Positions 7,884-63,000 of a DNA stretch of 64,000 nt are shown piece after piece. Positions within the stretch are counted from its first letter, which is position 1. Each line of letters begins with the position of its first letter. The position numbers and the translations under genes are program-made. Source of the DNA: Membranipora membranacea (taxonomy: Eukaryota > Bryozoa > Gymnolaemata > Cheilostomatida > Membraniporidae); NCBI GenBank assembly GCA_914767715.1, contig OU612065.1:3844001-3908000 (forward strand). The letters run 5' to 3'. Below the pieces are notes generated by a model. It was not told the DNA's origin. It saw only the letters and a list, made by a program, of their open reading frames with translations, and ran no database searches.

Positions 7884-10800
7884 GGCGTACCAGAAGGCGT
7901 ACAATTCAGTACCGCACAAATGGCAAATGTGAACATCAAGAGGGGGATCTTCCAAGGTGACTCATTATCGCCGCTGCTTTTCATCGTGGGCCTCATACCT
8001 CTGAGTGTGATACTACGAGAAGCGAAGCAAGGGTATACACTTTCCAGACCTCAGTCAGGTAAAATAAACCACTTGCTCTACATGGATGACCTAAAACTAT
8101 ACGGCAAAAACAAAAAAGAACTGGAGTCATTGGTACAAACAGTCAGAATTTTCACCCAGGATATAAGGATGAAGTTCGGAATACAGAAGTGTGCTACAGT
8201 AGTGATGAAGAGAGGGGAACGTGAACAGGATGAGGGGATATTGTTACCTGATGGAGAGCTGATGAAAGACTTAGGAGAACAGGACTACAAGTACTTGGGG
8301 GTGCTGGAAGCTGACGACATAAAAATGAAAGAGATGAAGGAGAAAGTAAGAAAAGAGTATTACAGAAGATTAAGACTACTATTGGAATCAAAGCTTAATG
8401 GAGGAAATGTCATCAAAGCAGTAAACACATGGGCGGTTGCTGTACTCAGATACTCTGGAGGAATACTTGACTGGACAAAGTAGGAGCTTGAGGTTATGGA
8501 CAGAAAAACCAGAAAACTGATGACTATAAACAGAGCGCTACACCCGAGGGCTAATGTGGCAAGAGATGAAGGAGGAAGAGGATTGAGAGCAGTGGAAGAA
8601 ACTATCAGGACAGAGGAACACGGACTATCAGATTACGTAAAACATGAAGACAAAGGACTCAACAGATACCTCAAGAGTTTTGAGAAGAAAGAAACCAAAC
8701 GAGAGTATAAAGACCCCAAGATGGAGGAGAAACAACAGGAATGGAAGAACAAAGCATTACATGGACAGTACACCAAGATAGCAGATCGAACAGACACCAA
8801 GAAAACGTACAAGTGGATAAAGAATGGCTACATGAAGAAAGAAACAGAAGGACTACTCATGGCTGCACAGGATCAAGCTTTACCAGCACGATGGAAGAAA
8901 GTACGTAATTATAGAGAAACGAGGAGGTCCAGCACTGTGTAGAATGTGTAATGAACGAGAAGAGACTGTGTTTCATATACTCAGTGAGTGTTCAAAAATA
9001 GCACAGACAGAGTATAAGAAACGCCATGACAAGGTGGCACAACTGATTCATTGGAATTTGTGCAAGAGATATCAACTAGAACACAGGAGAAACTGGTACG
9101 AACATCAGGCAGAGAGTGTGACAGAAAATGAGAAAGCAAAGATCATGTGGGACTTTACAATTCAAACAGACCACATCATACAAGCCCGCAGGCCAGACAT
9201 CGTTGTGCAAGACAAAGAAATCAACCACACTTGGATCATTGATATAGCCGTCCCAGGAGATGCAAGAGTCACAGAAAAGGAGAGGGAGAAGGTAAAAAAA
9301 TATCAGGATCTGGCGAGAGAAATAAGAAAAATATGGAACACATCAGTGACAGTTATACCAATCATTGTAGGAGCACTAGGAGCTGTGGCTAACCTACATG
9401 AACAAATGGATATGCTGGAGATAGAGAAGAAGGAAGTAGACAGAGTGCAGTTCTCTGCTCTACTAGGATCGGCAAGAATACTGAGAAAGGTGTTGGATAT
9501 CCGAGGTTAGGGGTCCTAACCCGATACCAACATATCACCGGCTGAAGAGCTGAGGAAATCAACAGGGAATAATAATCATAATAATAATAACAATAATAAT
9601 AAACTCAACAAAAACAAAAGACATACAACTATGTTGTATGACTAATAAGGTCAAACAGAGTTAATTACATAAGAGAATTACTCTCGATACACAAGGGTTC
9701 TGATACTTTGAAATAACAGAGTTCTTGATAATACTGGATAGCGAGTTTCAAATGACCTCTTAGTACTGAAGGCATGATTCATTTTGAATAATTATCAGAT
9801 GTCAAATTTTTTTATTCTGCTAGCTGTTTTATTTTCTTTTTTAGATCTACTTGCCGAACCCTTCGATACAGAGTGAGGTGGTTGTGTCTATAGGCGGTTA
9901 TCAGGATATATTAACTGTAAAGTCACAGGAAAGTGATATTATAAATGTCACTGATCATCAGCTTGAGAAGTTCAAGAGCTCATATAGTAGAAGTCCGGTA
10001 AGATCGTCTAATATGAGTATAGCCTCATGCTTCATTTTTCATTTTTTATGATGCTGAAACAAACTCTATACTCAATAAGTTGAAATCAGCCAAAATGGAT
10101 GGTTAGTTTTAAAATTGAAACTAGCACTTGTCAGAATTCTTGTAGTTATGCTAAAAAAACAACTTGCATATAATCCATATCTTTATAACTTATATGGCTG
10201 TTGTGTGTAAAATTGAGCCCATTTATTTTTTCGATAAAGTTCTATTTATTATCAAGTTCCATGATCCCGCCTTGTATCAGATATTTACTGATGACTAGAA
10301 TCATTGTTGTAGGGTGCCACTGGATTTTTGGATATATATGAGGCGAGGGATATCCGTGTTATTAGTTTAAATGGTGGATCAACTGCTATCTGGGGGATTA
10401 CAGAGCCGAGTAAGCGGCGACTGTTAGACGGTCTCTGTAATGGGACAGAAGAGCTTCCTATAAACGTCAGACTCTCGTTTACCAGGTATGTGATCAGCCT
10501 AAATAATCAAACAGTGTCCAATATTTGAGTACTGTTTTATGTATCGCCGCATGGTGCTGGTAGCTATTCAGCTGTGACGGGTTTGACTCGTAATTACAAG
10601 ATCCGTCATTACTGCATTTTGCCGTGCTGCTCAAGATGCATTATAAGACCAGAGAGGTGAATCCATAGAGTTATTATAAAACATATATATTAACTCTATG
10701 GGTGAATCAATCTAGATACATCAACTCTCATTTGTTATACACCAGGCTCATTTTTCTTATTGAATGTTTTTTTCATCATATTTCAGGCGTTCTAAGAAAG

Positions 10801-22700: not shown

Positions 22701-25700
22701 TATTGCTCTCCAGTCGATAATAGGTACACATGTCAAGTTTATATGCTGCGTGTTCTTTTTTAGGTGAAGTGTATGACTGTTCCTTTAAGTCTGCGTGCAC
22801 ACAGTGTGTGTTAGTCGATCAAAGTGGACTTACCGACTGTGTGTGGTGCCCAAGCTCTGGATGCGTTTTCAATAGCTGTGCAAGTGGAGATAATCCTATC
22901 AGTAGCGTCCCAAACTGCCCAACACTGGTCATTCACGAAAACAAGGTACCATCCTTACTCTCAGATTTTTTGGTTGATCCATTTCTTTATATTCACCATG
23001 TTTCCATGTGAGTTTCGGGGTCAGCCTAGATCGAGCTGAGCTGTCACCTCTTGGCTCAATCTCGAAATATGCAGCCATTCCCATGATAGAGCTGGGAAAA
23101 AAAATATCAAACAAATCTGCCTCCCGCGTCAGAGTCTTTGACGCTAACCGCTCGGCCACGCCAGCTCGCCGTAGTGCGAGGTGTTAAGTGCGAGCTAAAC
23201 CCTTGAGCTCAGCTCGAGCTCGGAGGCAGTTCCATAGCTCGAAGCTAAGGCTAATTAGCCTCAGTTCGAACTCAAAACTAACATGGAAATGCAGTGATTG
23301 AAAAATGAAAATCTCTTTGTGACAGTTACTTACTAGACAAGCTTGTCTCCAGAGTCACTTTTGTGGTGTACTTAAAAGGCCCTTAATTCATCAGTGTTCA
23401 CTGTGGAATGTCCTTTTCAAACAGAAACAAAATTATGCTGATATATTTGCTTGCTTTTGTTGATAACAATGGAAGACAAAAATTAATTTATTAATCACCA
23501 CAAGCCTCAGGGAAAGGCGCCTAGACATCGATGTGATTTCTTCACACCGTTTTGATAAACTTTTTTGTGTTCCTCAAAGTACCCCATATTCCCAATAACA
23601 GATTAAGCCACGGAACATCCCGATCGAGGGGCAGTTAGTGTTGGACATTCCTGGAGTTGGCTTGAATGAGCGAGGAGCATATGAAACAGCTGAGATCCTG
23701 GTAGGAAATGAGAACTGTACCAACATAACAGCCTCACAAGGAGACTCCAGTGACGATATGTAAGTTAAAATTCTCTACCGTGATTTACTCTCAGTCATAG
23801 GTGTTTTGTCTGTTTTTTTGTGTGCTGGTGACCGGTGAATAAGATGTAACAAATTAAAAAACTGTGACAATAAAATTGCCAATATGTGTCAATTATAGGT
23901 TCATTTCTTGGTCTGGTTTTAATCCCTTACTCTGACTCTGACTCTGACTCTGACTCTGACTCTGACTCTGACTCTGACTCTGACTCTGACTCTGACTCTG
24001 ACTCTGACTCTGACTCTGACTCTGACTCTGACTCTGACTCTGACTCTGACTCTGACTCTGACAGGAACATACGAGCTACTTCCAGCAGAAAGAAATTTAC
24101 CTTTTTTTTCATCAATCTGAAGAGAAAGTAATCTTAATTAAATTCCAAAAATATGACAAGATGTCAAAAGTATCTAATAGCATCTAATAGTATTTAATAT
24201 CTAATGGCATCTAATGACTGCTTAAGATTGTGGAAGTAAAACCAATTTTCCATTCGATCACGATAATTTTGTCGTTGACACATGAAGATCCCCTGATATC
24301 TGTATTCTTGCTACTCTCTACTCTCTAATTTGAGCCCGCCTGACATGTTGACTGTCTGTGATTGTTGATAAACAGTGAGCCCAGCTAGTTTATGCTTGTC
24401 TCACTGACGTGTATTTTTAGTATGATGTGATATGAAAACTCTTCTGAATTTACCCAATATCTGCAGAATTTTCATTCAGGAGGCAGACTACAGCAAAAAC
24501 TTAAATTATTCAAATTGTGTTATACATGAGTTCTACTGTCTGATTTTAGACTCCACTGCATCTTGCCATCAAAATCACAGTCAGGCAGTGTCACATTGAA
24601 GGTAACTGTGAATGGCATCTCCTGGGAGAACAGCGCAGGAAGTGACTTGCGTTACTACAATCCCTCTTTTAGCGGGATCACTGTTCAGGGCGCCTCTAAT
24701 GTAAGATACGGACCAGTAGCTGGTGGGACCGACCTTCAGGTATGTGTTATGGTCATCATTCTTTCACTTTCTTGCTTGGTGGCATTAGAACCGGTATCAT
24801 CCGCTATCATGAAATACTAGCAAACATCATTTTTTAATCAACACACTGGAAATAGCTCCTGTGGTTTCCTGTAACCTTACATATCCCAGAGCTTTTTAAT
24901 TAACCGTTTCATTCTTATCCTTACAGACTCTGTTGTTGGCTTATTCCTCTTTAGATAATTACGACCATATTGATATTTATCTTATGGCTGGTTCACATTG
25001 TCCCAGATGACATTGGGATGCCATCCCAAATGCTTATCCCAGATGGTCCCAGTCTTATGTTCACATTATAAAATTCATCCCAGACTAGCAGTTAGGTTTT
25101 TGTCTGGGATAGTGCTGGGATGATGTTCACATTGTCTGGGATTGTCCCAGATCGACCCAGATGATCCCAGATCATCCAAATGTCTGGTTCACATAGCACC
25201 CAGATGCAGAATGAGTCTGGGTTCGTCTGGGATAGCATCGGGAAAGTTTGACGCTTACAAACTTTCCAGATACTACCCCAGACGGACCCAGACTGTCTGG
25301 GATTGTGTCATTTTCATGTTCACATTGACTGGGATGGCTATCTGGGATGGTCGTCTGGGACAATGTGCACCAGCCATTAGTCACTATTTAGGCAAAAGCA
25401 ATTTAAAGGTTTCATAATTTAAAGTTTCTGTATGTCAATAATAGATGTTAAAATGATTCAATATCAACAATCATAACATACCCTTCCACAGATATCAGGC
25501 GACGATCTGGAGTACCTAGAATCCGAGACGGAATGGCGAATTGATTTTGTTAGCTTGAGAAATAAAAGAGCTTCCGATACTGCAGAAGTAGTTCACCAGC
25601 TCTCCTCATGTAGTTTGTAAGTTAACCTGACACTAGGTACCCATGTTATGTAATATCCACATCCATAGCATACCCTCCCAGTTAATTACAGCTTCTAGAT

Positions 25701-28700: not shown

Positions 28701-31700
28701 AGGGGTCTGGATATGTTTGAACATTTGCTGAGTGATAAACATTTTTTGGTAAATTTTGTTCACACGTTGGAGAGTCAACCGGACTTTGCGATGAGGGATA
28801 GAGTGAATTTGGCAGCTCTGCTAATGCTGACATTTCAGCATAAGATGGGCTACATCACTGAGTAAGCACAACTAAGTATTAGGATGTACTGTCACTTCTG
28901 TCATGACAGCGCTGAGCAATTCACTGACACTGGAATTGATGATGCAGATTAGGAATTATGATACATTATTTTGGTCACAAATTGTCTAGATATTTATTTA
29001 CCAATCAATTTCAGTACTTAACGGTGCAATGTAGATAGATGGATGTAAAACACTCACCTGGTTATAATCTGAATGTATGCAAACATTGTACTATACTGTG
29101 AAATGACGTTGTATACTGCGTATTGCTTTTAAAAAAATAAGCAAGTGCGTAATAAAATTCTGCTTTTTTATAGGATTATCAAAGAGCTCTTAGAATCCCT
29201 CATAAAAACCACAATGGAAAAGAAACACCCAAAGCTACTTCTCCGACGCTCTGAGAGTGTGGTGGAGAAAATGCTAACACATTGGCTCTCTCTATCCCTA
29301 TATAAATATCTACAGGTATGACGAGCACTGGGTATAGTATACTTATACATGATATACTAATATCAGTTGCGATGGTGCCGCCTTAAAGTGAAATCCTTTT
29401 CGCATTGATGACCCATGATACATTGATATCCTGGTTCATATGAGTTTTTATTACTATGGAAAAAAAAGTGGTTTCTTGTAACTAGTGTCATTAGGTGCAT
29501 CGGTCTGAACGAGTGCAAGATGGCGCACTGCTTTCATCAGTATCATCAGTGATTGATTGACAGTAAGTGAAAATGCCGGCCCTATCATTTGTTATGAAAA
29601 GTTAACATCAATAGATGGTCTCATCTCATAATTATTGGATGGGTGTGGCGGAGTTTAATAAACTTCAGAAGAGTGGTAGTGGTATGCTGAATTTCATAAA
29701 ATGTTTTTAGAAGGTTGCAGTGTCTGACAATCTATTTAAGCAGCTTCTGAAGTTTTTTGCCTGGAAATATTTCAGGATCATGCTGGGAAGCCGCTGTTTA
29801 TGTTGTATCAGGCAATCAAGCATCAAATAGAGAAAGGTCCAGTAGATGCTTTATCTGGTGAGGCACGTTACTCACTCTCCCAGGAACGCCTTCTAAGGCT
29901 CACTGTTGACGCCAAACCTGTGGTAAGTTAAGCTACAGTCTGCCATACAAACACAGAATTCCTTTCATTTCAGGTGTTGAGCAGATTCATGGCATGCTTA
30001 TGGGTACTTCTTTATTGATCCTATCCTTCAGGGAGTTTTTAATACCATTAAAGTATCATATTTCCCCAAACGCACAGCAAACAGCTTTGATGATCCCTCT
30101 TTGCGGTCAATTCTGTGCTCGATACTAGTGAAGTGAAGTATTGACAGGAATGCTATCATCATCATATATAGTTTCCAGTATCTAAAAATGTCTCGTCTCA
30201 TCGCAGTGTCCCATAACATCTTATTTATGAGAAATCTTATCTTTGTTTCACAGAACCTGGATGTGACAACCGACAGTGGAGAGAAGATTCAGTGTCGAGT
30301 GTTGGATTGTGACACTCCTACACAAGTGAAAGAAAAAATATTGGATATGATATATAAGAATCAGGCTTATTCTATCCGGCCACTTGCCTCTGACTTTCAT
30401 CTGGGTACGAAGTGTGATCTCTTGCATATCGATAGACAGGAATTGTGATTATGTTAATTGGTATTCAGATCATAAAATAATTGCATAAGTGCATTTTTTA
30501 ATTTAAATTCTAGTGTCCACCCCTAGCTTACTGGTTCCAGGGTATATGTGGGTTGGTTTGCTTTTTATAGACAAATTGTACACATGTTTAATAGATTTGA
30601 TTTGTTATTATAGAATGGTGTCCTGACAATAATGTTATACATGGGGTGCCTCTATGTGACGAAGATATAACGTCTAAAACAGAGAATGGATGGAAGCGAT
30701 TGAACACGTTGAGTCATTACCTCATAAGGGACAACACCAGGATGAGGCTTATATCCCGTTATCACACGCAATCGTTACATTCCAACAGTAAGTTAACACA
30801 TTCCACTATGTACAAAAATTACCTATCATTGTTTTTGTATATTTCCAACAACGATTTTATCTGTGGACCAAGGAGTTCGAAGTAAAACCTTGTGTGGACT
30901 GTGTTATTTGACCTTTCTGGTCAATATTATAATTACATGAGGCTTTTAATCTCCCATTATATTTTGTATGTTTTTCCCTAGAAATCTATGATATACTGTT
31001 ATTTTGTTTCAGGAAGTAGAGACACTGATAAGTTGTGTGATACATTATCTACGAGTAATAGGGGCACTCCTCGCGGCACCCCGAGAGGTACCCTGACCAA
31101 GAATGGAGCATTATCTATGGGTAATCTTCAGGATCATTACACTCCCAGCCATATATCATTGTGGCATCTTGTAAGTTTTTTCTGCTCACTTGCAAATAAG
31201 GGTAACTGCATATGTATTTGGCTTATAGGCTGCTCAAAACGTGTACATATTTCCTACTGGTTCTCTATATTGTTTGCCGGTGATGTTTACGATGGTTATT
31301 ACAGAGTGCAGCGCCATTGCTTCATAGTTTGATTAATACGTTTTTATATTGTCTTTTAGTCAAAGAGTGCTGCCTCACAGACACTGCCAAGAGACCGTCA
31401 GCAGACTATGATGTCTGAGATCTTCCTGACTCGGTTACTGAAGACCAAAGGAACCCTTCAAGAGTTCATAGATATCCTCTTTACAACAATTTTCTCAGCT
31501 CAAAACCTTCCCCCTACAATCAAGATCTTATTTGATTTCCTGGATGAGCAGGCAAATCGACACAACGTTAGTGACCCTGAGGTGGTGCATGTCTGGAAAA
31601 ACAACAGGTATGTCAATGCTAGCAGTACTATGATTACAGAGTGTGTGTGGGTTATAACTGAGTTTATTGGCCTTTGCCATCCGCAAAGCCAAAACATTGG

Positions 31701-33541
31701 TATGTTTCCAATAGAGGGTTATGTCAGGGATTACCATCAGTATAAACAATCCTTGAAGGGAGAAAAGGTTCGATCAGGAGGACACCTGGTATAACATTTT
31801 TGCAGCAAATATTTATATTTTGTAGCTTGAATTTGAGGTTCTGGGTGAATATCATCAAGAACCCAGAGTTTGTATTCGACATCAACAAGTCTGAGATAGT
31901 AGATGCTAGCTTATCTACTATAGCACAGACCTTCATAGACAGCTGTGCCATGACTGAATCGGATTTCGGACAAGTGAGTATCATGTACCAGTCAGTGCTT
32001 TCATTAACTGCTAGTACTTAATATGATAAGTAAACCGTGTCTTCTTTTCGTTTGAAAAGTATTTTTTTCATACCTCAATGCAATAGTTAGCAAACACACT
32101 GGGGGTGCCCCTTTAGATGGGGGCGACTATTAAGCCGTTTCCTGATTAACCCCTAATAAGTTGCAAATAAGATGTTTGAACTATATAAAGTAAGTTGCTG
32201 GAGAACAGCATAGGCATGGCAAGAATATTTATATATATGAAAATTAGGCCTTGTTACCTTGAAAGGCGAAAAAATTAGCATTACAACACACATCACATCC
32301 ACCCAAATATTTTCCTTGTCTCAACCAAACTTTTTACTCACAATACAAAACCTCAGTACCACTTTAGGTAGGGATGGTGTGAATTGTAAAAATGACGTCT
32401 ACAGTCTTTCAGATATCATAAGAAAAGGAGCGAGATATATCATACTAAGCACGTGGTATTCGATAATGCATGAACATCGATAAGATAACTACAAAATATG
32501 AGTGGCTGAACCTTGTCGGACGGGCTCTTTAAAAATGGACTCTAGGTGTAAAAAACTCTGTATTTCTCTAAGTTTGTCTATAGAAGACTTGACTGATCAT
32601 GCAGAAGAATGAGGTCTGTAGCTGATCTAATTTCTGGTTCTTTCGACTTCAGCTTTTGTATGGAATCACTCTTGATATATTTGTAGGATGCTCCAATTAA
32701 CAAATTGCTGTTCGCCAAAGATAGACCGAGATACAGGAAACTTTTACAGGACATGTATACAGAGATCAGATGTACTCCCCAACATTCTCAGAAACAGATT
32801 GAGGCTTATCACAGGGAATTATCTGAGGTCAGTACGATATGCATTAAATCACCACCCCTGGATGGTTACGGAGCTAATCAAGATGAACTTCCTGTATAAG
32901 CCTTCTACTGCTCCTCAGAGTACACCTGTATACAGCCCTGAGGCTGCTCTCTCGATATGACAGGCCATTATCTCAGATGCTCATACTACTACCTTATATA
33001 TTCAACAGTGATCAGTTACACATCCTACTACATATAAACTACTATTACTGGTAATGTCAAATAACTGACTCGGAGTCCATATGATACAGCAGCTTTGGTT
33101 TACAAGTTTTCACTTTGTCAGAGTGGTTTGAATTACCCTTGTCTTTTTTTCAGGCCTATCCACGCGATTTCTACAGGAATTCTGCACTGAAAGATATCTA
33201 CCTGTTTGCTCAAAAATATCAAACTCAGGTCAGTCAATGTTTGTTATTTATAAAAGTTTACATAACTGAAGTTGGCATCTGAGGCTGATCATCTTGTGCA
33301 CTATTCTCGGTCATGGATTTATACTAAGCGAGTTCACATTGCATCATGAATTGCGAAACTATCTTATTATCATGTGCATGTTCATAATTTGAAAATTTCC
33401 ACTTTCCAGCTCATTGATACTTTGGAAAGAAACGCACTGACAGCACACAATACTACTCTCTTCAGAGATATCATCAACATGCTGCAAAACGTGGATTTAC
33501 GTACATATGAGAGATACGAGTCAAATGGCGTCACCGTATAA
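13797..33541 (+). CDS. Plexin (semaphorin-receptor family) with a short sema-like region
   Basis: Thirty exons, starting 13797-14627, 14798-14923, 15068-15171, 15611-15740, 16144-16318, 17275-17377, 18648-18765, 20500-20613, 21199-21294, 21976-22066, 22764-22945, 23602-23759, 24550-24739, 25492-25616, 25997-26170, 26562-26874, 27334-27483, 27768-28011, 28251-28393, 28677-28861, 29174-29315, 29776-29922, 30254-30404, 30614-30787, 31013-31170, 31360-31607, 31826-31973, 32687-32827, 33154-33228, 33410-33541. The sum is 5,268 nt, or 1,755 aa, with every phase consistent. A signal peptide (about 1-21) is followed by a divergent region to about 320, PSI modules near 325-365, 490-529 and 630-690, and IPT repeats to about 1060. 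One membrane helix spans about 1088-1111. The cytoplasmic GAP has arginine motifs [18 protein letters not shown] (R1275/R1276) and LRFWVNII (R1595), around a RBD (about 1348-1455). Known role: semaphorin-type guidance receptor with Rap-directed GAP activity. Confidence 0.93.
15475..15535. repeat. 19-bp perfect inverted repeat (hairpin)
   Basis: Arms 15475-15493 and 15517-15535 are exact reverse complements (GCCTGTCTTGACAAGTTTT) around a 23-base loop. It lies in the plexin intron before exon 4. Confidence 0.9.
17110..17229. repeat. Imperfect foldback repeat
   Basis: The two halves carry AGGCC-TCGG and ATCCTATAA-type segments in opposite orientation (CCTATAAGATG against CATGTTATAGG), so the whole 120 bases can fold back. 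It lies just before the plexin exon at 17275. It looks like an old MITE. Confidence 0.45.
18278..18330. repeat. Short tandem duplication in a plexin intron
   Basis: A unit reading TTGACACCTTGGTATTCTG occurs twice, separated by a partial copy (TTGGTATTCTG). Confidence 0.75.
18766..20499. other. Long plexin intron (1.7 kb)
   Basis: No splice-bounded exon that keeps the plexin frame was found. Open frames of 113 codons (19622-19963) and 96 codons (20095-20385) were read and not recognised. Flanking exons join in phase 0, so no exon is required here. Confidence 0.5.
23041..23180 (-). repeat. Possible tRNA-derived SINE or tRNA pseudogene
   Basis: On the minus strand, around 23163-23105, there is a segment GGCGTGGCCGAGCGGTTAGC followed by GTCAAAGACTCTGACGC, closely resembling the D-arm/A-box half of a serine or leucine tRNA. 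No clean B box (GGTTCGANTCC) follows and the anticodon half decays into AT-rich sequence. A degenerate tRNA-headed SINE is therefore more likely than a working tRNA. It lies in a plexin intron. Confidence 0.45.
23929..24062. repeat. Perfect hexanucleotide microsatellite (ACTCTG)n
   Basis: About 22 uninterrupted copies of a six-base unit in a plexin intron. It produces artefactual Asp-Ser and Ser-Glu open frames on the two strands. Confidence 0.97.
24985..25376. mobile_element. Harbinger-like MITE with TTA target duplication
   Basis: The ends are inverted copies of TGGCTGGTTCACATTGTCCC (the right end differs at one base in this stretch), flanked by TTA on both sides (24982-24984 and 25377-25379). 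The body (392 bp) is packed with degenerate CCCAGA / TCTGGG units in both orientations and GTTCACAT segments. It has no coding capacity. A TTA/TAA 3-bp duplication and GGC...GTTCACA ends fit the PIF/Harbinger group. It lies in the plexin intron between the exons at 24550 and 25492. Confidence 0.8.
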
Positions 33542-34301: not shown

Positions 34302-37300
34302 ATTCTGCCAAATCAAATATTTCAGCCAGCAACCCTTCAGCAAACTCGATTTGGCCTTTGAGACTAGTGAGCACACGCCTTTGTTCACCATTAAGCTCCC
34401 TCAGATTTGATACCATCATTAGTACTTTAGGAAACAGTCCAGCTTCAGAGCGATGATTCAGATCTATCTGAGTCTGTAAAGCTTGAATCAGAATCTCCTG
34501 TAGCTTGTTGACCTTCTCTCTGTTTGTCAGACCCCCTCGATCTACAGCAGATTTATGACAAATTGAAAATCAGGGAGGGCTTCAGTACACTAAAAGTAAC
34601 GCTCAGGTCACTTGCCTGAGGGAATCTGTACGAGAGAGTACTTTAGCTGAAGGATGACTTTATCTGGCAGAAAACTGAATATTTTCTTCTTGGTTAATAT
34701 ATATGGACATTCATACCCTGTCCAAAACTTCCTCAGCAAGAATGTTTGTCATTTACCATTAGGTACAAGAAGATCAACAAAGGAGTTGGTTAACCCCTAT
34801 TCTTTTCATACGAATATTAGAATACTAAATCAACTGGGTGAGGAGAATAAATAATTGAATTTGGCTACTAATTCCATCAGCGTTTCCCTTTCCCCTTATT
34901 GATGAGTAAAATCGGGTAAAGGAGTTGATTGAACAGATGACCAATAAATTTCTAGTACTAAAGCCCTCATGGCAAAAATGTGTCACTCTGATATGAGTGC
35001 TATTCAATGCCCTCATCTGTCCAGGGCAAGAGACAGATTTGAACATTAGCTCAAATGATAATAAAGCATAATGTGGCATTAAAAGGTTATGACCAATAAA
35101 CAATATGCTTAATATGGAGAGATGTAAGTAATATTCCAGTCAAGCATCAGCTATATCCACTGTTGCTATACCCTCAATGTCTTTTCCTATTTGTTGTTCA
35201 CCTACACCACACAATCCTCTCCAGTAGGGTTTGACATTGCCATTACAGTTTTATGTTTATACTGCATTACATATATACTTCCAGTGGACACTTCACAATG
35301 AGGCAAACATAGTTACTCTATCTTGCAAGTGACCCTGCGATAGCATCTACAATTAACTTGCTTGTTGGCAGCTGCATAATAACATCCAACAGTCCTGGAG
35401 GTCACTTACCAGGCCTAATAAGCATGAGTGCACAGAACAACGCTGTCTCTACATCCGTTAGGCGAAAGCTGCTGAACCTAGAAGCGAAATTAAACAGCAG
35501 ATCGACGAATGAGCTGCCCATAAGGAAGCTGTTTCTCAGCTGTAGTTTGGTGTAGGCGGAGTCAATACCACTCAGCAACATGATCTCTCTGTCAGGATCG
35601 ATAAACGAAGCCTGCATCACACACGCTACCTATAACATAATCATAATGTAATGTAATTTAGACCAGAGTAGAAGATTATTATTGTAAGTTACACATTGAA
35701 GCAGTTGCTACACAGATATGCTGAACGACCTTGATGTTGATGGTGCCACAATAACGGATAATAAGACTTAAGAAAAAACCATGTCACTTCAAGCAAAAAT
35801 CTTTTCTCTGTTGACAGAAGGTAGCTCCTATCAGATACACGTCAGACACGTACAGCCAACACTTTACCTCAAAAGATCCCCCTTTTATAAGAATGATTTG
35901 ATCATCTGTTTCCAGTGCAGCAAAGCCTGGTATTCGCTTAGCAAAGTTCACAACATCTGTAATGGCTTCATTGAACCTGGCCTCATAAGCTTTCCAGCAG
36001 GCCGTAGCCAGGTGGTCGGGTAGATTGACGACATCAGCTCGACATGCCAGCTTCTCTGTCATGCTCTGTCTCATGCTCATAGTATTGTTAAAAGTGAATT
36101 GAACGGTCTCAATGTAGGCATCATACACGGTAGATGCAACATCTGCCATGTTCACCGCCGATAGTTCATTAGCTGGTTGATTCGGAGTAGTGACCAACAT
36201 GACTTGCTGTTGGTGGTCTATGATTACATTTCCACTCTCGTCTAATCTGCTAGTTTTAGCACCTTGATCTGCAGGTAATAGTTCTGGTTCTCTGTAAGGT
36301 CTCTTCTTCAGAGGACTTTTATACATAGACTGGTCTACAGTAGTTAGGTGACTGGTACCAGCTTTAGCAGGTGAGGCAGCACTCTGTATGATGATTGGTG
36401 TGTCAGCACCAGTACTAGGTATTAAAAGTTTATTTGCAGGAGAGTTGGCTATCTTTATTGGTGTCGCAGCATTGATGATCTGGACATTTGACATATCTAT
36501 AACCTCTCCAGTTGGTGTGGTGATGAAGGTCTAAGGAAATAAATTTGAATGAATTTATCAACCATAAGAGATTTGAGTGTGTTGTGGGAAGCAATAAACT
36601 ATTGCTTAGAACGAAGAAAAATACCCATAGTATGTGATTTGTTGGTAACTCAAGTCCCGCTGATTATTTGTCGTATTGAGTATTTAAAGCTGACCTGTTG
36701 GTTGAGTGGCAGTTTGTTGGTATTCACTATCAATAGCTTTGTACCTGGCCCACCAGCCCCACTTAAACCAGCTAGTTGAGAGATTTTCAGAAGACTGATA
36801 GCTTCATTCTTATTGTGCTCCGCCTTCATTTTCTTTTGTTCTGAATTCTTGAGCCTGTTACGATTCCTCTATAAAATTCACAAGAAAATGATATGGACCA
36901 CATGCTGGTTAGTAAAACAATATTGCACAACTCAGTTGGGGCGAGATGTTGGGAGACACTCCCTGTTTCCGGAAGCTGTGCACCTTAAAACTGTTATTAT
37001 GTGGGAGTTATCTTTTCATTTAATGATTTGCTTTAAAGGAGACAACTCTCTATCCAATAAGATTCTAGCTCCTAGGACCAGGGAGGGTGGGATACCGCCC
37101 ACCCTCTCTGCTAGGACACAACACTTAAGGTTGAGCAGCAGCCACAGACTTAACAATAAACCTAGACAGGACACTATATGGAGGCATTGAGGCATTTAAT
37201 TGTGGGCAACTTTTCGAATTCAATATCCGATCAAAATTGATCTAGTTATGAACAAAAAGCCTGGATTATGAACAGTGAATCAATGATAGCATCATTGCAA

Positions 37301-40300
37301 CTACAACTTCCAATGACGTTACGTCGCTCCACAATTAAGTCTATGGGAGCAGTTTATATAATTCATCGCCTTTTTGTTGTTCTGACTTAGAGTTAAAGAA
37401 ATTTCACTCATTTATTCTACTAAGTTGAATCGTACAAGATATCGAAACCATCAAGCAGTACAGTTTACATTGCAGAGTCTCTTAAAAATAACTTGATTCC
37501 AGTTTTTCAGCATTTCAAAGCATATGCTACTCACATTGAGAACCTCACTGTTACAGATCCTGGCATTCTCCAGGCTCATCATCATCTGGCTGTCTGTATC
37601 CAGACTGTTCCCTCTCTGCCGACCACCTGTCGGTGCATTCACTGTTACCACAGCGCTGGCCGACGTAACAGGTGTAACATCTATCACCTGTTGGGCCGCC
37701 TCAGCCAAAGTCGCGCTAGCGGACTGCATTGTGGGAGTGGTTGGGGTAGTGGGCGTCAGTACCACAGGATCAGTATGGGTTAATGTCTGAGTGTTAAGTG
37801 GTAATTCTCCTGTTGTGATAGTGATGACACCATCCTGGTTCTCAGCCTTCAGACTGAGCAGACCGTGTAGAGCTTGAGCTGTCTGGTTATCCTCTATAGT
37901 CTTACAAGCCTCGGCTATTGTCTCACGCATCTTACGAGATCGTCGCCCAAGTTTGGCAGCTAAAGCAAATAAAAAGCTGTAACATAAAAAGTATGTGCCG
38001 TGCCGCACCAACAAATTAGGTGAAATTTCGTGCCTTCGAATTGATATAAAATTTCAAAACATACAATTAAGGTAATGTCAAAGACCGATCCGAATATCAT
38101 CATATCATATACTGTTGGAAAGCTGCCGAGCTACTGAAAATGAATACCTGAACAAAAACTTGATTCGATGAAATTGTGTCATTTTAGGGAGGAAATTAGG
38201 CAGAATACGCTGTTTTTGTCCATGCAGATGGAGGAATCAAATTAATTGCAAGAAATTTCAAAACAGGTGGAATGTATACTTAGAGATTGGGTTCATCGTA
38301 AAATTTGATTTTCTTTGATATATTGACATTGACATTGACATTTTACGTCACGTCATACAATGCTTTTTTTGTGAAGCCGTGAAAAGATGTGTGAAATTTC
38401 AATCATTTATTCAGAACAGATCATAGGCTCGAAACAAAATTCATTATGATTTTTTTTCAGAGTACTCTTCAAATGTCAAACACATTGATTTTCAACAAAT
38501 TAGCTTGCATATTGCAATGACAGTAGACTCTCGAATACAGCTAATATTTTTGCCACCTTTGCATAACGTCAAACATGCTGTCCAAGTGACCATTGTTGTG
38601 GCCAAACGAAGTTTTTTTGAAAGTTCTCACATACGAAGCCGCTTTCATTAACCATGGTGCACACAGGATATGTTAACAGAATTTTTCATTGCATCTTCAT
38701 TTTTCACGAATTTAACGCAAAAAAAATGCCCAAAAACACCTCAAAAGTCCCAAAAAAACAGCTGTATTTTGGCATTCTTAATCAGTAAGTATCCTCTCTT
38801 AAGGTCTGTTGAACCAACAAACGTCGCAATCTAGCATTCCACTAACGTCGCAATCCCAAAAATGTCGCAACGAAGGGTTTTTATGACGTCGCAAACCCAC
38901 AAACGTCGCAACTCTACAGAAATACTGAGTTGTCTTCTCATTTGATGCATATTTGTGATTATAATTTGCTGCGAGTAGTAGATAGGAGCATAAAACTTCA
39001 AAACACTGTGTGTAGTTGAATATCAGTGTTATTTATTGTGCTATGGATAATTGTTGAGTATTTTTCATGTCATTTGAAACATTATTTTTCACTTCTTAGG
39101 GTTGTTTATTGTTACCTCTGAATTCATTACTGCTGTCATAAAAGGGATGTTTATCTACATCTAGGCACAGATATTGAAAACCCAGTTGGTAATGTTTTGA
39201 TTTGGCCAATGATTGAAGTCGTCATGAGGTATTGACACAGCTTTGGCGTGAATGGTTCTTTATTTGCAAAGGGTGTATGCAATAGGGTCTTGATCGAAAT
39301 GCTCCGCAGATTTTTTTGGATTTTACTTTCAGATCTTCCGGCAAATCTGCTTTTTTCGTTAGCCTCTCCTGATTGTTTTTGGTAAGAACTCTTCGACCTT
39401 ACGTAAGCAAACCCAAATTGTTGGTCGATGAGCAAGTTAACGAAGACCTGCTAACCTTTATAAAATCCTCTTTAAGAATGCTTAACAAGTAACCTAATTC
39501 ACTGAGACCATAGAAGAATACACAATAACACCCTGATAAATCCACTTGTATTGATTTGTCACATGTACCATAACAACTAGAGCTAGAGCTGTTACATCGT
39601 GACAATTGATGATGCTCGGATAAGGTCTTAGGAGTTGTCCCCTCACAAAATAAAATGGGACAACTCATAACTATAATTTTTACTTTTCACTTGTGATATA
39701 AAATGTTTTGTATTAAGTTAAACCAGGGAGGGTGGGAGGTATATCCCACCCTCCCTGGTTAAACCAGTCTCTCTAGTTAAACATAAATGAAATAATAACA
39801 AACAGATGCACAAGAACTACCATCTGAGAGCTCTGGTGGTGTCTATTGTGAAATATGATCAATGGAAACAACAACCAGTGTTCCTTGGAAATATCATGTG
39901 CTATAAGAATATTATTGCGTCTTAACTGGCCTATGAACAATACAGGGGGCCCAATTCACTAAGTATCTGGGTCTGTTGCGACAAAACCTCCATTGAACCG
40001 CCAACTGCTCTCTAGTCCTTTTGATGACAGGAACGTTTGATCTCTCTGTGATCATTGCTATCAACACAAAATATCATATTCTTCCTCGCTAAGTGTTCTG
40101 ATGTTTCTTAGACCACGCACAAATGCTTTGTGAAGTTCTGTTAGAACCTGTCAATTATGTCACTGAGTCATCATGCACACATTTATGTCTTCACAAATCC
40201 CTTATATTAGTCATTCAAACCAAGTCTCCAACTCCTTGATCAAACGTTCCAGGCTACTTTAAATCACATGGTGTATTTAAGATTTGTTTCGGTAAAATTT

Positions 40301-43300
40301 AATGCATAACCATATTGCCCTCACAGGCACTAATGTCGCATATTCGACCCACTTGGGGCCAAATACCAAACAAAGCAGAACAGACGCCTTTCATTTACTC
40401 ATTATTGCTCTTGTTCATTTTGTATGGAGTTAACTCCTTTCTGTTGAGGAAGGGGGCAACTCCATACAAAAATTATTTCGTTTATGAACTCAAATATATC
40501 CAGAATATTTGCTTTCGAATCTTGTGACAAAAAAGTGTTAACTCAATTTATTAATACACATAGTTGAGATGCGTTTTTGACATTGAAATCAATTTTTTTT
40601 CTTGAAAAATAAACTAAGTTAGATACCAAAAAATCAATCTATACCATACGAGAAAAACGCGCTCCAAGGGCTCTCCAACAAGAACTGACCAGATTTGATG
40701 TTCCCCCAGTCTTATATGCACCGAAGTTCATCACAGTGGATAGGCATGGCCAAAAAACGGAGATTACATTTGCCCGTCGATCACTTTTAATTTGAAAATA
40801 AAATGCAAATAAACTGGATTCCTTTTGAAAAAACGGAGACTTTGTCTGATAAAAAATGATTCAAATTATACATGAATTATATGGCAGCGATTGAACCTTC
40901 CAAAAAGGCGGAGATGGGATTGCTGACAGATGACAGTAATTTAATCACGCCTAGTATGACAACACACAACACATTTCGTCAAAAAATAAATCGGAGATTG
41001 GTCTCTGATTTATTTGGTTATAATAATAATTAATTTATACAATAATGCCTGCGCAACACAGACACCAATCTCCGTTTTATTTTTTGACAAAATGTGTTGT
41101 GTGTTGTCATTACTAGGCGTAAATAAATTATTACGATGTAACAGCTCTAGCTTTTATGGTACATGTGACAAATCAATACAAGTGGATTTATCAGGGTGTT
41201 ATGGTCTCAGTGAATTTGGTTACTTGTTAAGCATTCTTAAAGAGGATTTTATAAAGGTTAGCAGGTCTAGCTTCGTTAACTTGCTCATCGACCAACAATT
41301 TGGGTTTGCTCACATAAGGTCGAAGAGTTCTTACCAAAAAAAATTAGGAGAGGCTAACTAAAAAATCAGATTTGCCGGAAGATCTGAAAGTAACATCCAA
41401 AAAAATCTGCGGAGCATTTCGACCAAGACCCTATTGCATACACCCTTTACAAATAAAGAACCATTCACGCCAAAGCTGTGTCAATACCTCATGACGACTT
41501 CAATCATTGGCCAAATCAAAACATTACAAACTGGGTTTTTAATATCTGTGTCAAGATGTTGATAAACATCCCTTTTATGACAGCAGTAATGAATTCAGAG
41601 GTAACAATAAACAACCCTAAGAAGTGAAAAAAAATGATTCAAATGACATGAAAAATACTCAACAATTATCCAATGCACAATATATAACATTGATATTCAA
41701 CTACCCACAGTGTTTTGACGTTTGTATGCTCCATCTACTACTCGCAGCAAGTTATAATCACAAATATGCATCAAGTGAGAAGACAACTCAGTATTTCTGT
41801 TGAGTTGCGACATTTGCGACGTTAGTGGGTTCGAGCTATTGCGACGTTTAAAAAGTTGCGACGTTTGTGACATTATAAAAACCCTTCGTTGCGACGTTTT
41901 CGGGATTGCGACGTTAGTGGAACGCTAGATTGCGACGTTTTGACGTTTGCGGGTTCAACAAGGTCATCATTATTGACTTCATAAGGACAACAGCAAGCAA
42001 ATTATACCATATATGTTATAGTAAATCCGACCATGACAGACTTAGCGAACACCAACCTCCACGTGACATGCCTAGAGACAAACATTTCTGCAGGCGGCAG
42101 TACTGACATCGATTCCGTGTTGTGATGGTTATCTCACAGTTTTTGCTGTAGTAACATCTTCTGCGCGATGGGTCGCCAATATCCTGTAGCGCCCGACGAA
42201 AGAATCCCTAGTTGATGATTAGATAAAATTCACAGGACTGTTGCAAGGTTGTCATAATAATACTGATATGATGTGCGTTGTTTGTCACAATTTCTGACAT
42301 TTGGTTACACAAGTCCAAAAACCACAAAAAATATATTCATCATTGATCAGGTATATTCGAGTAATGAGAAAATCATCATGCGGCTTACTGAGCAGCACAG
42401 CAAATTAAAATTCCTACCACTTACCTTACATCCCTCACAAGCCAATACTCCATAATGTAGTCCAGATGCCTTGTCGTTGCAGACCAAACACTTAGCATCA
42501 GCAGGAGGACTGTCTTCTACACCAAGACCTGTGCCCACCACCTGTATCGCACTATTCAGCGCATCAACTGGTTGTATGAGGGGAGATTGAATGGCTTCAC
42601 TCACTGGTGTTATTATTTCCTGAACACTTACAGAGTCTGTGACATCTGCATTAGCATCCGTTATAGTGGCACTTGTTACCTGTATGTAATTTGATGAAGG
42701 ATAACTGGCAAGAAACTGCACTCCATCAGTTCCATCACCAGTCCCGAGCTCATCTACAAACCGAATGTTGTCTTAATCTTAATTATGTAACATACTAGAA
42801 AAAATAATGGCGCTAGTCATCGTCACGGTGAGAAAATAGATTATATCCCCCTCACAAGGTTGACATGACCCTGTGAACTAACCAATGAGTTGTGTTCTAT
42901 GATCAACCTGCACCATATACCCTTCTCTGCTAGGCACTGGTTAAGATTGATGACTCCACTTTCCCAATTCAGTTAAATGACATCTGTGACGCACAGGTCT
43001 TCTCCAAAACCTGGGACTTTAGCAATGTTTGACTGCCCCCTTGAGTCAAGGGAGGCAGTCAAACATTGCCAAAGTCATCATCATCATCATCATAATTATG
43101 ACATTTATAATAAACTTTATTTTAAATGTCATAATTATTATTAATCATAGGACAAGTATGGCAGTAACAAATGATGATGATGGCAAGGAGGACATACTAC
43201 TGCACACTCAGTCACACCATAAAAATGCATCCAGCTGGTACTAGCTATCAATGGGCAAGATCAAAAAGTGTGAAGAATTGGGTGGATTTTAGTTGACATG

Positions 43301-56259: not shown

Positions 56260-58619
56260 CTAGTCCCTTTTCACACCTTTTGAGGCAAACACATTACTGT
56301 AAACAAACGGATGAAGAATCCCAAGTGTCTTTGTCCAAACCTGGGGGAATGCTATCTCATAGAGAGACAGGCTTCTTCCGAAGCATACTACTGCATAACC
56401 AACAGCATAGGCACTGAACTGCAATCCCATTGTCAGAAATAAACCGCAAACAGCCTAAAAATGGAGAATATTAGGTTTGGTTATTATATGGTCACAGAGT
56501 AAGGTTATCCTTCTCTTACTCTTACTCAGTGATAAGATACATTAAAGGGGTAAATTCATCTCCCAAATTCAGTTACCAAATATAGATCCAGCTGTCAAAT
56601 TTACATAATCACATGAAAGTGTTACAGACAAGGATATAGCCTTATTTCTGAAATGCATACAATAATAAATTAACTGATCCTTCATCCTATTGATTATGTA
56701 AGAAAAAAGGGTGTATAACCTGATAACTATCATAATTTGTGGTTACATTGTCCGGTCAATTACCTATAGAAGTTATTCTCTTTTCTACTTACCTTTGCCA
56801 AGGGGTTGTCATGTAGGGCACCACTGGACCACAGCCGGAATGCATAGAACGCTGCTAACATCATGGGTAAACCGAATCCTAACAAACTCATATATGTCAC
56901 ATATGGATGAACTTGATACCATTTAACAGTACAGGTGAAGCCAGCAGGCTCCTGACCATGTCTACAATAATACAAATCTTTTGTATCAGACTCGGCAGAG
57001 CACCTAACATGTATACCAATGGTAAATATTACTGTATTACTGTGATAACTGACATAAGAATCTTGAACACATACTTAGCCAACATTAAAGCTGCGCCTCC
57101 CCAGAGAAGTCCATAGCACCAGGCCAATAACGCGTGTATACCGTAGGAGGCATCTTTTCTCTCTATAAAAACGGAATTAAGGTTGATGTCAGGTTTGCAT
57201 CTTCAGATACACAAATCATATTTATATGCAGCTATCGCTCTACGAATGTGCTCTTTTTGATTATAATATCACAGAGAAAGGATATATATCCTCACTATGT
57301 GATCACAGAGTAAGGACCTATGTCCTTACTCATCGATGTGATATCGCGAAGCAATAAAAGTAATGAATAACAGATGTCGCAACTGCTTCTACATAATAAC
57401 ACGTAGTTGAGATTTCAGAATATGTGTCAATATCATATTTCGTCAAAACAAAGGCCAGCTATCAATAACACTGAAGTTCCCGCTACAGCAATTCAGCTAA
57501 CTTTCAAAATCCAGCTCTGGTCGTTCGCAACTAACTCTATGCCACAAGTTGGGAGTTTGTGTCTTCAACATCCTGTTGGAGAACTAAAGTTGATTTTACC
57601 TGGGCTTGATGCGCGTTGAAATTCAGCATATAGAGTAACAGCAAGCATACTAGCTGCAGCAATTGGTGTGAATTTACACCAAAACACATAAAACCGGCAC
57701 ATCAATGGTCCAAATATCCATCTGAAACATTTATGAGAAATTATAGAATAACAGTTGATATACAGTGGCTAATAGATGAATGGTTTTAAGGCATATCATA
57801 CAATAGTCAAGCAAATAAGCAACCCGAGGTTTCATGAATTTCCCTTTCATACCCAAGGGCAGAAGATGGGTGAGCTGACGAAAGAAAACAATTCCCTGTA
57901 GACACGATGTATTTATATTTGAAATGAATAGTGTACATCAGATTGAATACTGAGGAAATTATATATTTGTGAATACTTCGTATCTCTGTATGACTTTGAC
58001 TTTGAAAACCAACCTCTGTTCGAAGTGGGACACAGCTCCAACAAAAAATAACAAAACAACCAGCAGATTGAGAATAGAGAGATGATAGTGGAGAGTTCGT
58101 ACAGCCTTGGGTATTTTAATTGCAGGTAAGAAGTCAAACAACATCCACAAATGTGTCACAACACTCAGTATCCCTACCAAATGGAAAAATAAGCATTGTC
58201 ATGAGCCTTCCAATGTTTAAAGAAAAGTCACTTCATTTATTTAGATCAAGGAATCAGGTCAATAACGGATGTGCTTCAAAAACAATTATAAGACTCCAAA
58301 TGCTCACTAACCTAACAAATCTTAGTAAATGTCTGTTTTGGTCCTCCAGAACAACATAAAGATCATTCTGGGATGACTCCGTTAGTAAAAAAAAACAGAA
58401 CAATTCAGAACATCCGATTGATCTCAGTCAACCCGCTTCACAATTAAATGCCTCAGTGCCTCAATGCTAATGCTCCATATAGTGTCCTGTCTAGGTTTAT
58501 TATTAAGTCTATGGGTCCATCTTACTATACGTCCGACACATTACTCAAAGGTGAGTGTACTCACCTCCAACAAAACAAGCAGCAGCTGCTGCATATTGTT
58601 CATTGACAGTTAAAGGCAT
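56260..58619 (-). CDS. Opsin-like seven-transmembrane receptor with TM7 lysine
   Basis: Six exons in coding order: 58619-58565, 58173-58014, 57721-57600, 57162-57075, 56961-56793, 56454-56260. The sum is 789 nt, or 262 aa, with all phases consistent and seven hydrophobic helices. Residues by opsin position: WIFGPLMC before TM3 (C80 = C110), Y83 = 113, WCYGLLW in TM4, E146 = E181, C152 = C187 in FTCTVKWY, F-S-A-Y-A at the TM6 WLPYA site, P235 = P291, K240 = K296, and HPFVY (P303/Y306) in TM7. The DRY triad reads A-E-F, the NPxxY asparagine is histidine, and W265 is lost. Loops and termini are very short. Family knowledge: K296 carries retinal as a Schiff base, with E181 as the ancestral counterion. 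It is certainly a GPCR-type protein; the opsin assignment is inference from these residues. The start could extend upstream through an acceptor near 58655. Confidence 0.68.
58440..58514. repeat. Dispersed repeat copy in the first intron of the opsin-like gene
   Basis: Inverted relative of 37143-37204, sharing CACAATTAAATGCCTCA, CCATATAGTGTCCTGTCTAG and TTTATTATTAAGTCTATGG. It contains a small extra insertion compared with the other copy. Confidence 0.8.
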
Positions 58620-59072
58620 GATCACTAAATCAGTCCAACAGCTACTCTTTCGCCTGCAAATTAGAAATAGTCACTTTAGCGATTGCGATTTTGCGCCGAT
58701 GACAAGAAAACAAACCTCCGTGTGCTGGGTGTTTCCAAGTGTAAGAGAGAGTGATTAAGCTGCCATCGTTGCAGTGCAAAATGAAGACTTGGCAGCCTCT
58801 CCCTGTGTATGCAACAAAGGAAACACACTGGTTACATGGCACAATACCCAAAATAACAAATGCACTGAAGTTATCTTTGAGCTTTGGGTCAGGAAATGCA
58901 TCTGTCCTTAGATATAGATACATTTTTTTGTAAAAAAATATCATACATTATATCAATGAAGAGGGAGTTCATTGATTATATAACCATCTAGATTTACAAG
59001 CATGTATACAACTTTTTGCCAAATCCAACCAATGATCAACTCACTCTTGGTTGATGAATGAATGATGGCAAT

Positions 59073-60091: not shown

Positions 60092-63000
60092 ATGGCTACC
60101 GCTGCTTCAGACATCTCTGAATCATTGAATAAGTTTCTGCCTCTGCCAGATGGAAAAACATTTTGGGATGATGGTAACTTTGATGTTATTGTTAAGAGGA
60201 TTGAACAAGGCAAAAAGTAAGCATGATTTTCCACTAGGAAACCATTGACACCTAGTAATGGTATAAAGGTATCAAGGATATCTGTAGTGTGTCTTTTGTG
60301 ACTAGCTAGTAGGTATTTCTTAGCTCAAGTGCAATCCGCTTCTCCCTTTTACTGGTATGCCTACCCGATGGTCAAGTAGTTCGCTCACAACTTAAGTTAA
60401 ATAATGGATAATATTTTCATACTTTGACAGATCATTGAATGATTTCATGTTCATGGTTGAAGAACGTGCTGCCATTGAGCGTAGATACGCTGATAAACTA
60501 CAAACATGGTACACTAAGTGGGTTACATCTGTTAAACAAGGTATATACTATTTCCTTTACCTACAACCCAAGTGCTACAACTCATCCAATACCAAACTAA
60601 AAAAAAACAAACAAGAACACAAAACTAACATACATGCCCAAAGAAATTGTTTGTGATATAATTGGGTTAGATTATACTGTTTCCCCTTGGGTCGATTAAC
60701 TTGTAAACATCTTATATAGGCTGCCTTTGACCATCATTATGCCAGGATAACTTTTGGTGTAAGTATAGCATCCCGAAATAATATTCAAAGAGTTTTTGGG
60801 CGCCCATACACACTACCTTCAAGCAGCAGCTGTTTATTTGGCGGCATAGGGAGTTGTCGTCTTTTGGTAGTTCAGTGCTGCTAGAAAGTTAGGTGTCAAA
60901 TCATGAATTCTGTCATGTCATGACTCTTTTCGGTTCATTTGTGTCAAGTCGCGTCAAGTCTGAAATTTCATAAACTCAAGTCTGGTATACATACACTGAA
61001 TCACTTGCAATACTTCAGTCCTTTTGCATTACTCATCGGCTTGCCCTTTTGATTAAAATGGTGATCATGTCAATAAATTATTAGTTTTTAACACTGGAGT
61101 CCATCAAAGTATGCTTGTAGTCTTTTACACTGTTTAGGTATGCAGATAATTTAGTTTCCTCATAATATATTCAATGCTTTTGGCTTTAGAAGAAAATCTC
61201 AGTGATTGAAAGGTGAATTTACATGATTGTTCCAAAGGTTTTTTGTTTTAAATGGTCAGTTTTATGGAAGTCACACTTGTAGATTACTGCTGCTGCATGT
61301 TTTATAGGTCCAGAAAGTGGAGACATAGAACATGTGTGGCTCAGTGCTCTGAGGGAAGGTAGGAGGATAGCAGATATACACTTCAATATGAGCTCAAAGC
61401 TTGGCCTTGCCCGCACTGATGGTATTATGAGGAATATGTACAGGTATGACCTGATGGTTGTTAGATCAAGTATTGTCCATGTTGGCTCACCAATAGCATT
61501 GGAACAATCGGAATTTGGGCAAATTTGATCAAACTAAGCATCTCTTTTGTAATAGTGACAGCTGACTTCAAGTGGCCTATTGACTGCCAGAATATAATGT
61601 ATATATATATATGCATATCAATGATTGAATGCAGCAATACAGATTTTATGAGTTTGTATCATTCTTTTCCAGCTTCAAAAATGAACACTATCACAAACAA
61701 CCACTTTTGAAAGAATTAAAAGAAACTAAGGACTGCAAAGATGCTTTCAAAAACATACAAATACCTTACAAGAAGGCCATAGATAACTTGAACAAAGTTA
61801 AAAAGGTGAGATTGGACTGGCTATTTGGCTCCCAATTACTGCAACGGATGAATAACAATAAACATTGGGAGCAATTTCTTATCTGAGAATAGAACACTTT
61901 TTTAGTCATGTTTACAAAGCCAACAAATGGGTTCAGATAAAAAGTATATTATCTAATATTTGGTCTTCCAGAAATATATGGATGCTAGTAAGCAGGTTTT
62001 GCACCATACCAACAAACTGAAGGACAAAGACTCATCTTCGGAGAAAGCAAAGTTTGATACGCTGAACGAAAACAAGGAGAAAACAAAATTCAAATACCTT
62101 GAGGCAATCAATCACTTTAACGATAACATCAAGGATACCTATGTCAGAGTAAGAAAGTTTGCTGTTTTACTCGAGATACTTTTTAAATTAGATTATCCTT
62201 CCGACCGAATTACCAATAACAGATACCAATCTTAAATGTTTATATTCAGCATTTGGATGTCAAATTTGCCTACCCTTACACCCTTACATGTTTGATTGCT
62301 CTAGGACATGAAGACTGAGTTTCAGAAGGCTCAGGAGCTTGAGAAGAGTAGGCTGACAGTGCTTCTCAACAGTCTGCATGAGTTTGTTAGCAACATCAAT
62401 CTGCAGACACACTCCGGAGAGCCGTGAGTAGTGAAACCTTCTAATGCGCAGCTGTTGCTTATAGCAATTAGGCACAAATGGTTGGCATGAATTTTTTTAT
62501 CTTTTTGCCCCATCAGACTAACCTTATCTCTGTGGCCCCACTTTTGTTTTGCTAAATAAGAGTGGGGCCATTGGTACCTGTACCTGTACTGTCACCTAAT
62601 GCCATTGAGGTGTTTTGATACAAATTACTATGGGTATCTACACCAAATATCAAAACCCCAGGTTAACTAAGTAAGTAAATAGGTATTGAAATTATACAGC
62701 AGGACAGATTCAGGATTCAACCTAAGTCGTGAGGAGTCATGTGTCTGCCGTATGTTAAATTGTCACTGCACCAACTGCCGTTGCAAAAAATTGCGAACAC
62801 TACTTTTTGCGAAAGGAAACTCAGATCTCAGATGTTCTATGGTGGTACAAGTTGGTAATACATAGCATAGCCTACAGATAAAAATCTTTTTGGAAGATTT
62901 GGTGACCATTGGTGCTCTGCCATAAGAAGAGAATGTACATCCACAACATAAGGATATCATTTCACAATCCAACTGCATGAATACTCCCCTCAAACATCAA

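Follow-up and report, generated by a model that had tools for sequence, protein, structure and literature searches.

Opsins with an altered NPxxY motif and opsins lacking the retinal lysine are already known (accessible text of PMC9368030). In the available part of PMC8628405, the pairs D83/N302, R135/Y223, K231/E247, and Y306/F313, together with NPxxY, are treated as marks of G-protein activation, and chordate RGR and retinochrome are the most altered in those marks; the status of both as photoisomerases in vivo is disputed (PMC9368030, same text). Gluopsins and nemopsins, compared here by description, are likewise altered chromopsins whose function is unclear, and in them E or R takes the place of K296 (excerpt of PMC9368030), whereas the protein described below keeps this lysine. 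Within bryozoans, the xenopsin of Tricellaria and Bugula, also compared by description, has been reported as the phototaxis pigment of larval eyes (excerpts of PMC7529461 and PMC6805122), unlike the role proposed here for the present protein, of which this opsin of the same phylum is a possible photoisomerase partner. In the available portions of the bryozoan-opsin literature, xenopsin is the only bryozoan opsin put in a named class. Further opsin sequences in the Tricellaria assembly are mentioned in the accessible part of PMC7529461 and not followed there, and the authors may already have come across a counterpart of the present gene and passed over it. No report of this gene was found in the accessible portions of the open-access literature on bryozoan and Watersipora opsins and on retinochrome, and the excerpt of PMC12584886 gives no new opsin family in the Tara data. 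Against this background of related altered opsins, what is new in the gene described here, located in a window of 64 kb (the whole stretch of DNA that was analyzed), is an unusually stripped opsin that keeps its retinal-site residues.

Gene structure and conserved residues

The gene occupies positions 58619-56260 of the minus strand, where six exons join in one frame into 262 codons and a stop, all five junctions having a GT donor and an AG acceptor (Table 1), precisely as had been proposed in a preliminary description of the window. This splice model is supported by a sequence from public assemblies, P0001, since it is an uninterrupted protein of 262 amino acids whose sole difference from the window protein is K155I; the uninterrupted frame and a longest contig of 3,575 bases suggest that P0001 is the product of spliced RNA. 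The second relative, P0002 of Watersipora subatra, is full-length, 56% identical over the whole query, and has the start and the key kept and replaced residues in common with the window protein.

Table 1. Features of the opsin gene and of the remaining window, in window positions
Feature	Position	Strand	Content	Evidence
Open frame 5′ of the ATG	58620-58655		Frame open behind a possible AG acceptor; additional 5′ coding exon possible	
Exon 1	58565..58619	−	Start codon; MPLTVNE..., also the start of both P0001 and Watersipora P0002; start of TM1	GT donor; shared start
Exon 2	58014..58173	−	Remaining TM1, TM2; H26 for N1.50, N54 for D2.50	GT-AG; alignment
Exon 3	57600..57721	−	TM3; C80	GT-AG; alignment
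Y83 codon (exon 3)	57688-57690	−		Alignment
K88 codon (exon 3)	57673-57675	−	Second lysine, at the bovine T118 pocket position	Alignment
E105 codon (exon 3)	57622-57624	−	Replaces R3.50	Alignment
Exon 4	57075..57162	−	TM4; W127	GT-AG
Exon 5	56793..56961	−	ECL2 and TM5; C152, P174; A182 replaces Y5.58	GT-AG; alignment
E146 codon (exon 5)	56949-56951	−	E181 position	Alignment
Exon 6	56260..56454	−	TM6, TM7, stop; F211 for W6.48, A213 for P6.50, H246 for N7.49	AG acceptor; alignment
K240 codon (exon 6)	56329-56331	−	K296 position	Alignment
Short shared repeat	58457-58514 (opsin intron 1) and 37142-37194	Opposite strands	21 kb apart	88%
Inverted repeat	38819-39610 and 41123-41940		About 1.5 kb apart	87.5% identity over 840 columns
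LINE-like element	7884-9507		RVT_1 fragment, then weak zf-RVT match	RVT_1 2.8e-11; zf-RVT under cut-off
Ser-Asp run	23874-24128		Long run within an open frame, probably a microsatellite	
Plexin, nuclear receptor, and F-BAR gene pieces	31360-31791, 35787-36530, 42350-42772, 60405-60653			

The lysine K240 is situated six residues ahead of HPFVY and falls in the retinal-lysine column of the alignment, E146 is situated six residues ahead of C152 and aligns on bovine E181, and Y83 is found three residues past C80, in the column of bovine E113 (the Y113 equivalent). These three placements had been anticipated from the sequence, as had the motif FGPxxC, which is indeed present in the window protein but whose proline is not conserved, the Watersipora protein having FGDFIC. 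Among 27 columns in which a single residue is shared by 90% or more of the 23 reference opsins, 12 are kept by both bryozoan proteins, four by one, and 11 by neither. In bovine numbers, those kept in both are M1 (which is trivial), L79, C110, F115, W161, W167, E181, C187, P215, Y268, K296, and P303, and those lost in both are N55 (replaced by H), P71, D83 (N), R135 (E), P171, G174, Y223 (A), W265 (F), P267 (A or G), A295 (T), and N302 (H).

The replacements in the activation network are directly visible in the alignment. N1.50, D2.50, R3.50, Y5.58, W6.48, P6.50, and N7.49, each found in at least 30 of the 32 reference rows, all give way to other residues in the two species, and R3.50, which is R in every one of the 32 rows, is E in both. 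In class A receptors, N1.50, D2.50, and N7.49 form the sodium-site network, R3.50 and Y5.58 the G-protein lock, and W6.48 and P6.50 the TM6 switch and hinge. Both species retain P7.50 and Y7.53 within an NPxxY motif altered to HPFVY, as the motif is also altered in RGR/retinochrome, and D/ERY is replaced by AEF or AEY. In both species the R135/Y223 pair corresponds to E105/A182 and the D83/N302 pair to N54/H246; of the eight paired residues in the accessible part of PMC8628405, Y306 alone is kept in both bryozoan proteins. This pattern of lost activation residues, present in both species, was absent from the preliminary description, and it argues against an ordinary signaling photoreceptor because seven residues of the network are replaced in both.

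The comparison with the nearest described opsins points in part to the same changes. Squid retinochrome keeps K296 and E181 and has N7.49, Y5.58, and P6.50 replaced, as the window protein does, but unlike it retains R3.50 and W6.48; the retinochrome sequence used here has FPLLI where the available text of PMC9368030 gives YPxxY for molluscs, a difference that is either squid-specific or due to an error in the sequence used. Human RGR and peropsin keep D2.50, R3.50, W6.48, and N7.49, which the window protein does not, and the ECL2 motif EPxGxxCT is common to RGR and the window protein.

Of the 31 aligned positions that we take to form the retinal pocket, 23 have the same residue in the two species, compared with 149 of 260 for the proteins as a whole. 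The pocket replacements are F211 for W265, K88 for T118, P91 for G121, and Q236 for A292, and K88 is found in the window protein, in Watersipora, and in the partial relative P0003. Both the TM5-TM6 connection and the C-terminal tail are very short, and the predicted structure has no helix beyond residue 255; the confidence of this model depends on the presence of opsins in its input alignment (pLDDT 91.6 with opsins vs 48.4 with the two bryozoan sequences).

Possible functions of the protein

The reading we favor, with confidence that is about evenly balanced, is that of a bryozoan Group 4 chromopsin that would carry retinal through a Schiff base with K240, would have lost G-protein coupling, and would most likely act as a photoisomerase of the retinochrome/RGR type. 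Retinal binding, photoisomerase activity, and the absence of signaling are what we infer from the sequence. In such a protein K240 would hold the retinal, with E146 as the likely counterion, light would isomerize the bound retinal, probably from all-trans to 11-cis, and the isomerized retinal would be handed on to one of the animal's signaling opsins, for instance xenopsin. Since the activation network is missing, the protein would most likely serve such an opsin as a photoisomerase or as a retinal store. More tentatively, the two proteins may represent a bryozoan-specific opsin class without the activation network, R3.50 and W6.48 included, in which the lysine, the counterion position, and the disulfide would have been kept by selection; this would be a retinal-binding photochemical protein that has kept the GPCR scaffold but ceased to act as a receptor, and in its rebuilt pocket the conserved K88 may give rise to unusual chromophore chemistry.

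Several findings on the pocket can also be accommodated by an opsin by descent whose light function has been lost and which now works as a retinoid carrier, a chemoreceptor, or a structural membrane protein, K240 being a relic or repurposed. The replacement of W265 and other pocket positions and the second lysine at T118 are compatible with this view, the altered pocket may not hold retinal, and lysine-less opsins exist (accessible portion of PMC9368030). Such a loss nevertheless appears unlikely, given that both species retain the lysine, the E181 position, and the disulfide cysteines though 11 of the 27 conserved columns are lost in both. More doubtful still is a photoreceptor that signals through a G protein, or some other partner, by an unconventional route: opsin kinship, the residues at the K296, E181, and Y113 positions, and the retention of P7.50 and Y7.53 would suit it, and a non-standard NPxxY does not keep some receptors from signaling (PMC9368030, available text), but the residue at R3.50, arginine in all the references, is glutamate in both bryozoans, W6.48, P6.50, Y5.58, D2.50, and N7.49 are replaced as well, and the short TM5-TM6 segment and C-terminus also weigh against it.

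Kinship with opsins and position among them

Kinship with opsins is shown by profile comparison. A profile of 19 opsins scores the window and Watersipora proteins at 54.4 and 72.0 bits and a profile of 30 non-opsins at 15.4 and 11.1 bits, and the values without TM7 are 55.7 and 77.4 vs 16.0 and 11.5 bits, respectively. In the leave-one-out control the opsin profile scores higher for all 19 opsins and for none of the 30 non-opsins. The evidence here is the difference between the two profiles and not the absolute score, as the lowest control opsin, retinochrome, reaches 145.1 bits and the non-opsins 94.9 to 163.6 bits with the opsin profile; the two bryozoan proteins score below all of these controls and so exceed every one of them in divergence. 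In the 34-row alignment the K240 column is K in 23 of 23 reference opsins and in none of nine non-opsins, and in the larger alignment in 19 of 19 opsins and none of 30 non-opsins, one of the latter being gapped. When searched against PDB, the profile of P0001 and P0002 finds squid rhodopsin first (E 3e-7) and then melatonin receptors (2e-3), with K240 aligned on the squid retinal lysine; P0002 alone also has squid rhodopsin on top (E 1e-5), and the window protein alone matches CX3CR1 first, weakly (E 0.0086).

The reference panel came from a single search with a Go-opsin (the best 120 of 121 matches), with classes assigned by source name or, for unnamed members, by list position, and its 29 non-opsins are mostly dopamine-type or trace-amine receptors. 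Against 127 references, the profile of the bryozoan pair scores eight Go-opsin-like rows at up to 49.3 bits, human peropsin among the top matches at 47.1, 77 melanopsin-classed rows at up to 43.4, squid rhodopsin at 34.3, and seven c-opsins at up to 28.2 bits, the melatonin receptor at 17.7 and 29 other non-opsins at up to 21.3 (median 5.3); OPN5 (18.3) and bovine rhodopsin (13.6) fall under the best non-opsin. In hhalign comparisons with the pair, Group 4, here a set of RGR, RRH, OPN5, and retinochrome sequences, scores 99.0, Go-opsins 91.7, the melanopsin type 79.6, c-opsins 64.7, and non-opsins 51.5.

A maximum-likelihood tree of 34 rows (25 of the 120 panel proteins, seven further sequences, P0002, and the window protein) separates 25 opsin rows, the bryozoans included, from nine non-opsins with support of 100/99, and without TM7 the bryozoans still group with the opsins (94/95). 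Within opsins they fall with RGR, RRH, and retinochrome (94/86; 93/91 without TM7) and next to retinochrome (96/62), a pairing that may be a long-branch effect; the bryozoan stem carries 3.27 changes per column and meets other long branches, as the tree program warned. Without RGR alone the bryozoans fall in a set of four rows (98/95), and without RGR and retinochrome opsin membership remains at 100/99 with no resolved place within opsins. An L-INS-i alignment was identical to the first and is thus no independent check. By AU tests, whose p values refer to nine groupings on a single tree and are uncorrected, the melatonin receptor as sister (p 0.0008), OPN5 (0.015) or c-opsins (0.028) as sole partner, and a Go-opsin sister (0.037), which the automatic name of P0002 implies, are rejected at 0.05, the last though Go-opsins head the profile list, whereas rejection failed for all non-opsins (0.062), melanopsins with squid rhodopsin (0.072), RGR (0.128), and RRH (0.237).

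The preliminary view of an opsin-family protein with K296, E181, and Y113 equivalents is thus one on which profile, tree, and alignment agree: by sequence the window protein is an opsin, and retinal binding is plausible. As to the phylogenetic check that had been proposed, the pair groups with opsins and a melatonin-receptor sister is rejected, but placement among all non-opsins narrowly escapes rejection. That last value, together with the weak CX3CR1 match of the window protein, is what speaks for convergent acquisition of the lysine by a class A receptor from outside the opsins; this non-opsin reading is weakened by the profile searches, the two-profile controls, and the tree, and it is very improbable, as none of the 30 non-opsins scores like the bryozoan pair, also without TM7, squid rhodopsin comes first for the two-sequence profile and for Watersipora alone, and the melatonin-receptor placement is rejected. 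The best fit places the bryozoan pair inside Group 4, nearest RGR, peropsin, and retinochrome; chromopsin is to be read as the best fit among the groups compared, because xenopsins, cnidopsins, ctenopsins, placopsins, and pseudopsins lie outside the panel.

Host, remaining window, and significance

Three relatives (P0001, P0002, and P0003) were matched among about 5.8 billion proteins. P0003 matches in exon 3 only, with unrelated flanks, and was excluded from trees and profiles, and P0002, named 'rhodopsin, G0-coupled-like', is located on a 79-Mb contig of Watersipora, a cheilostome bryozoan. The two-sequence profile, with E up to 10 and the best 7,998 candidates considered, found no protein beyond the same three, pattern searches of prokaryotic contigs (112 matches) and viral contigs (26 matches) gave no confirmed relative, and no NCBIfam family was matched by P0001 or P0002. 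The host of the window gene is probably a bryozoan. The remaining genes look animal-like, with matches to Plexin_cytopl (E 1e-29) and the nuclear receptor zinc finger zf-C4 (6e-9). The G+C content of the window is 37.7% and that of the Bugula neritina draft 35.26% (excerpt of PMC7576161), a comparison that carries no weight for the host. A sponge or placozoan host with an early-animal opsin, suggested solely by the preliminary description, is hardly credible, the only organism-named relative being a bryozoan with 56% identity over the full length, and the consequences drawn for sponges and placozoans fall away for this reason.

Elsewhere in the window, the nuclear receptor pieces have a ligand-binding match under the cut-off and a zinc finger over it, and the FCH match of the F-BAR gene is just under its threshold (27.0 bits vs a cut-off of 27.8). 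The inverted repeat, which lies next to the nuclear receptor gene or inside it, resembles a foldback mobile element, and the short repeat shared with the first opsin intron is probably a small mobile element. Scanning the 64-kb window for Rfam families and tRNAs gave no matches.

Genes of this kind can, as the present case suggests, be missed by surveys that demand NPxxY or a good 7tm_1 score, because the Pfam scores are 31.3 bits for the window protein and 29.1 for that of Watersipora against a cut-off of 30.5. The gene offers a way to test if pigment formation survives the loss of R3.50 and W6.48 in an opsin. Should the protein bind retinal, bryozoans would have in it a candidate retinal photoisomerase, and opsin photochemistry would here have parted naturally from GPCR signaling, further than in squid retinochrome and human RGR, since both of these, in the sequences compared, keep R3.50 and W6.48.
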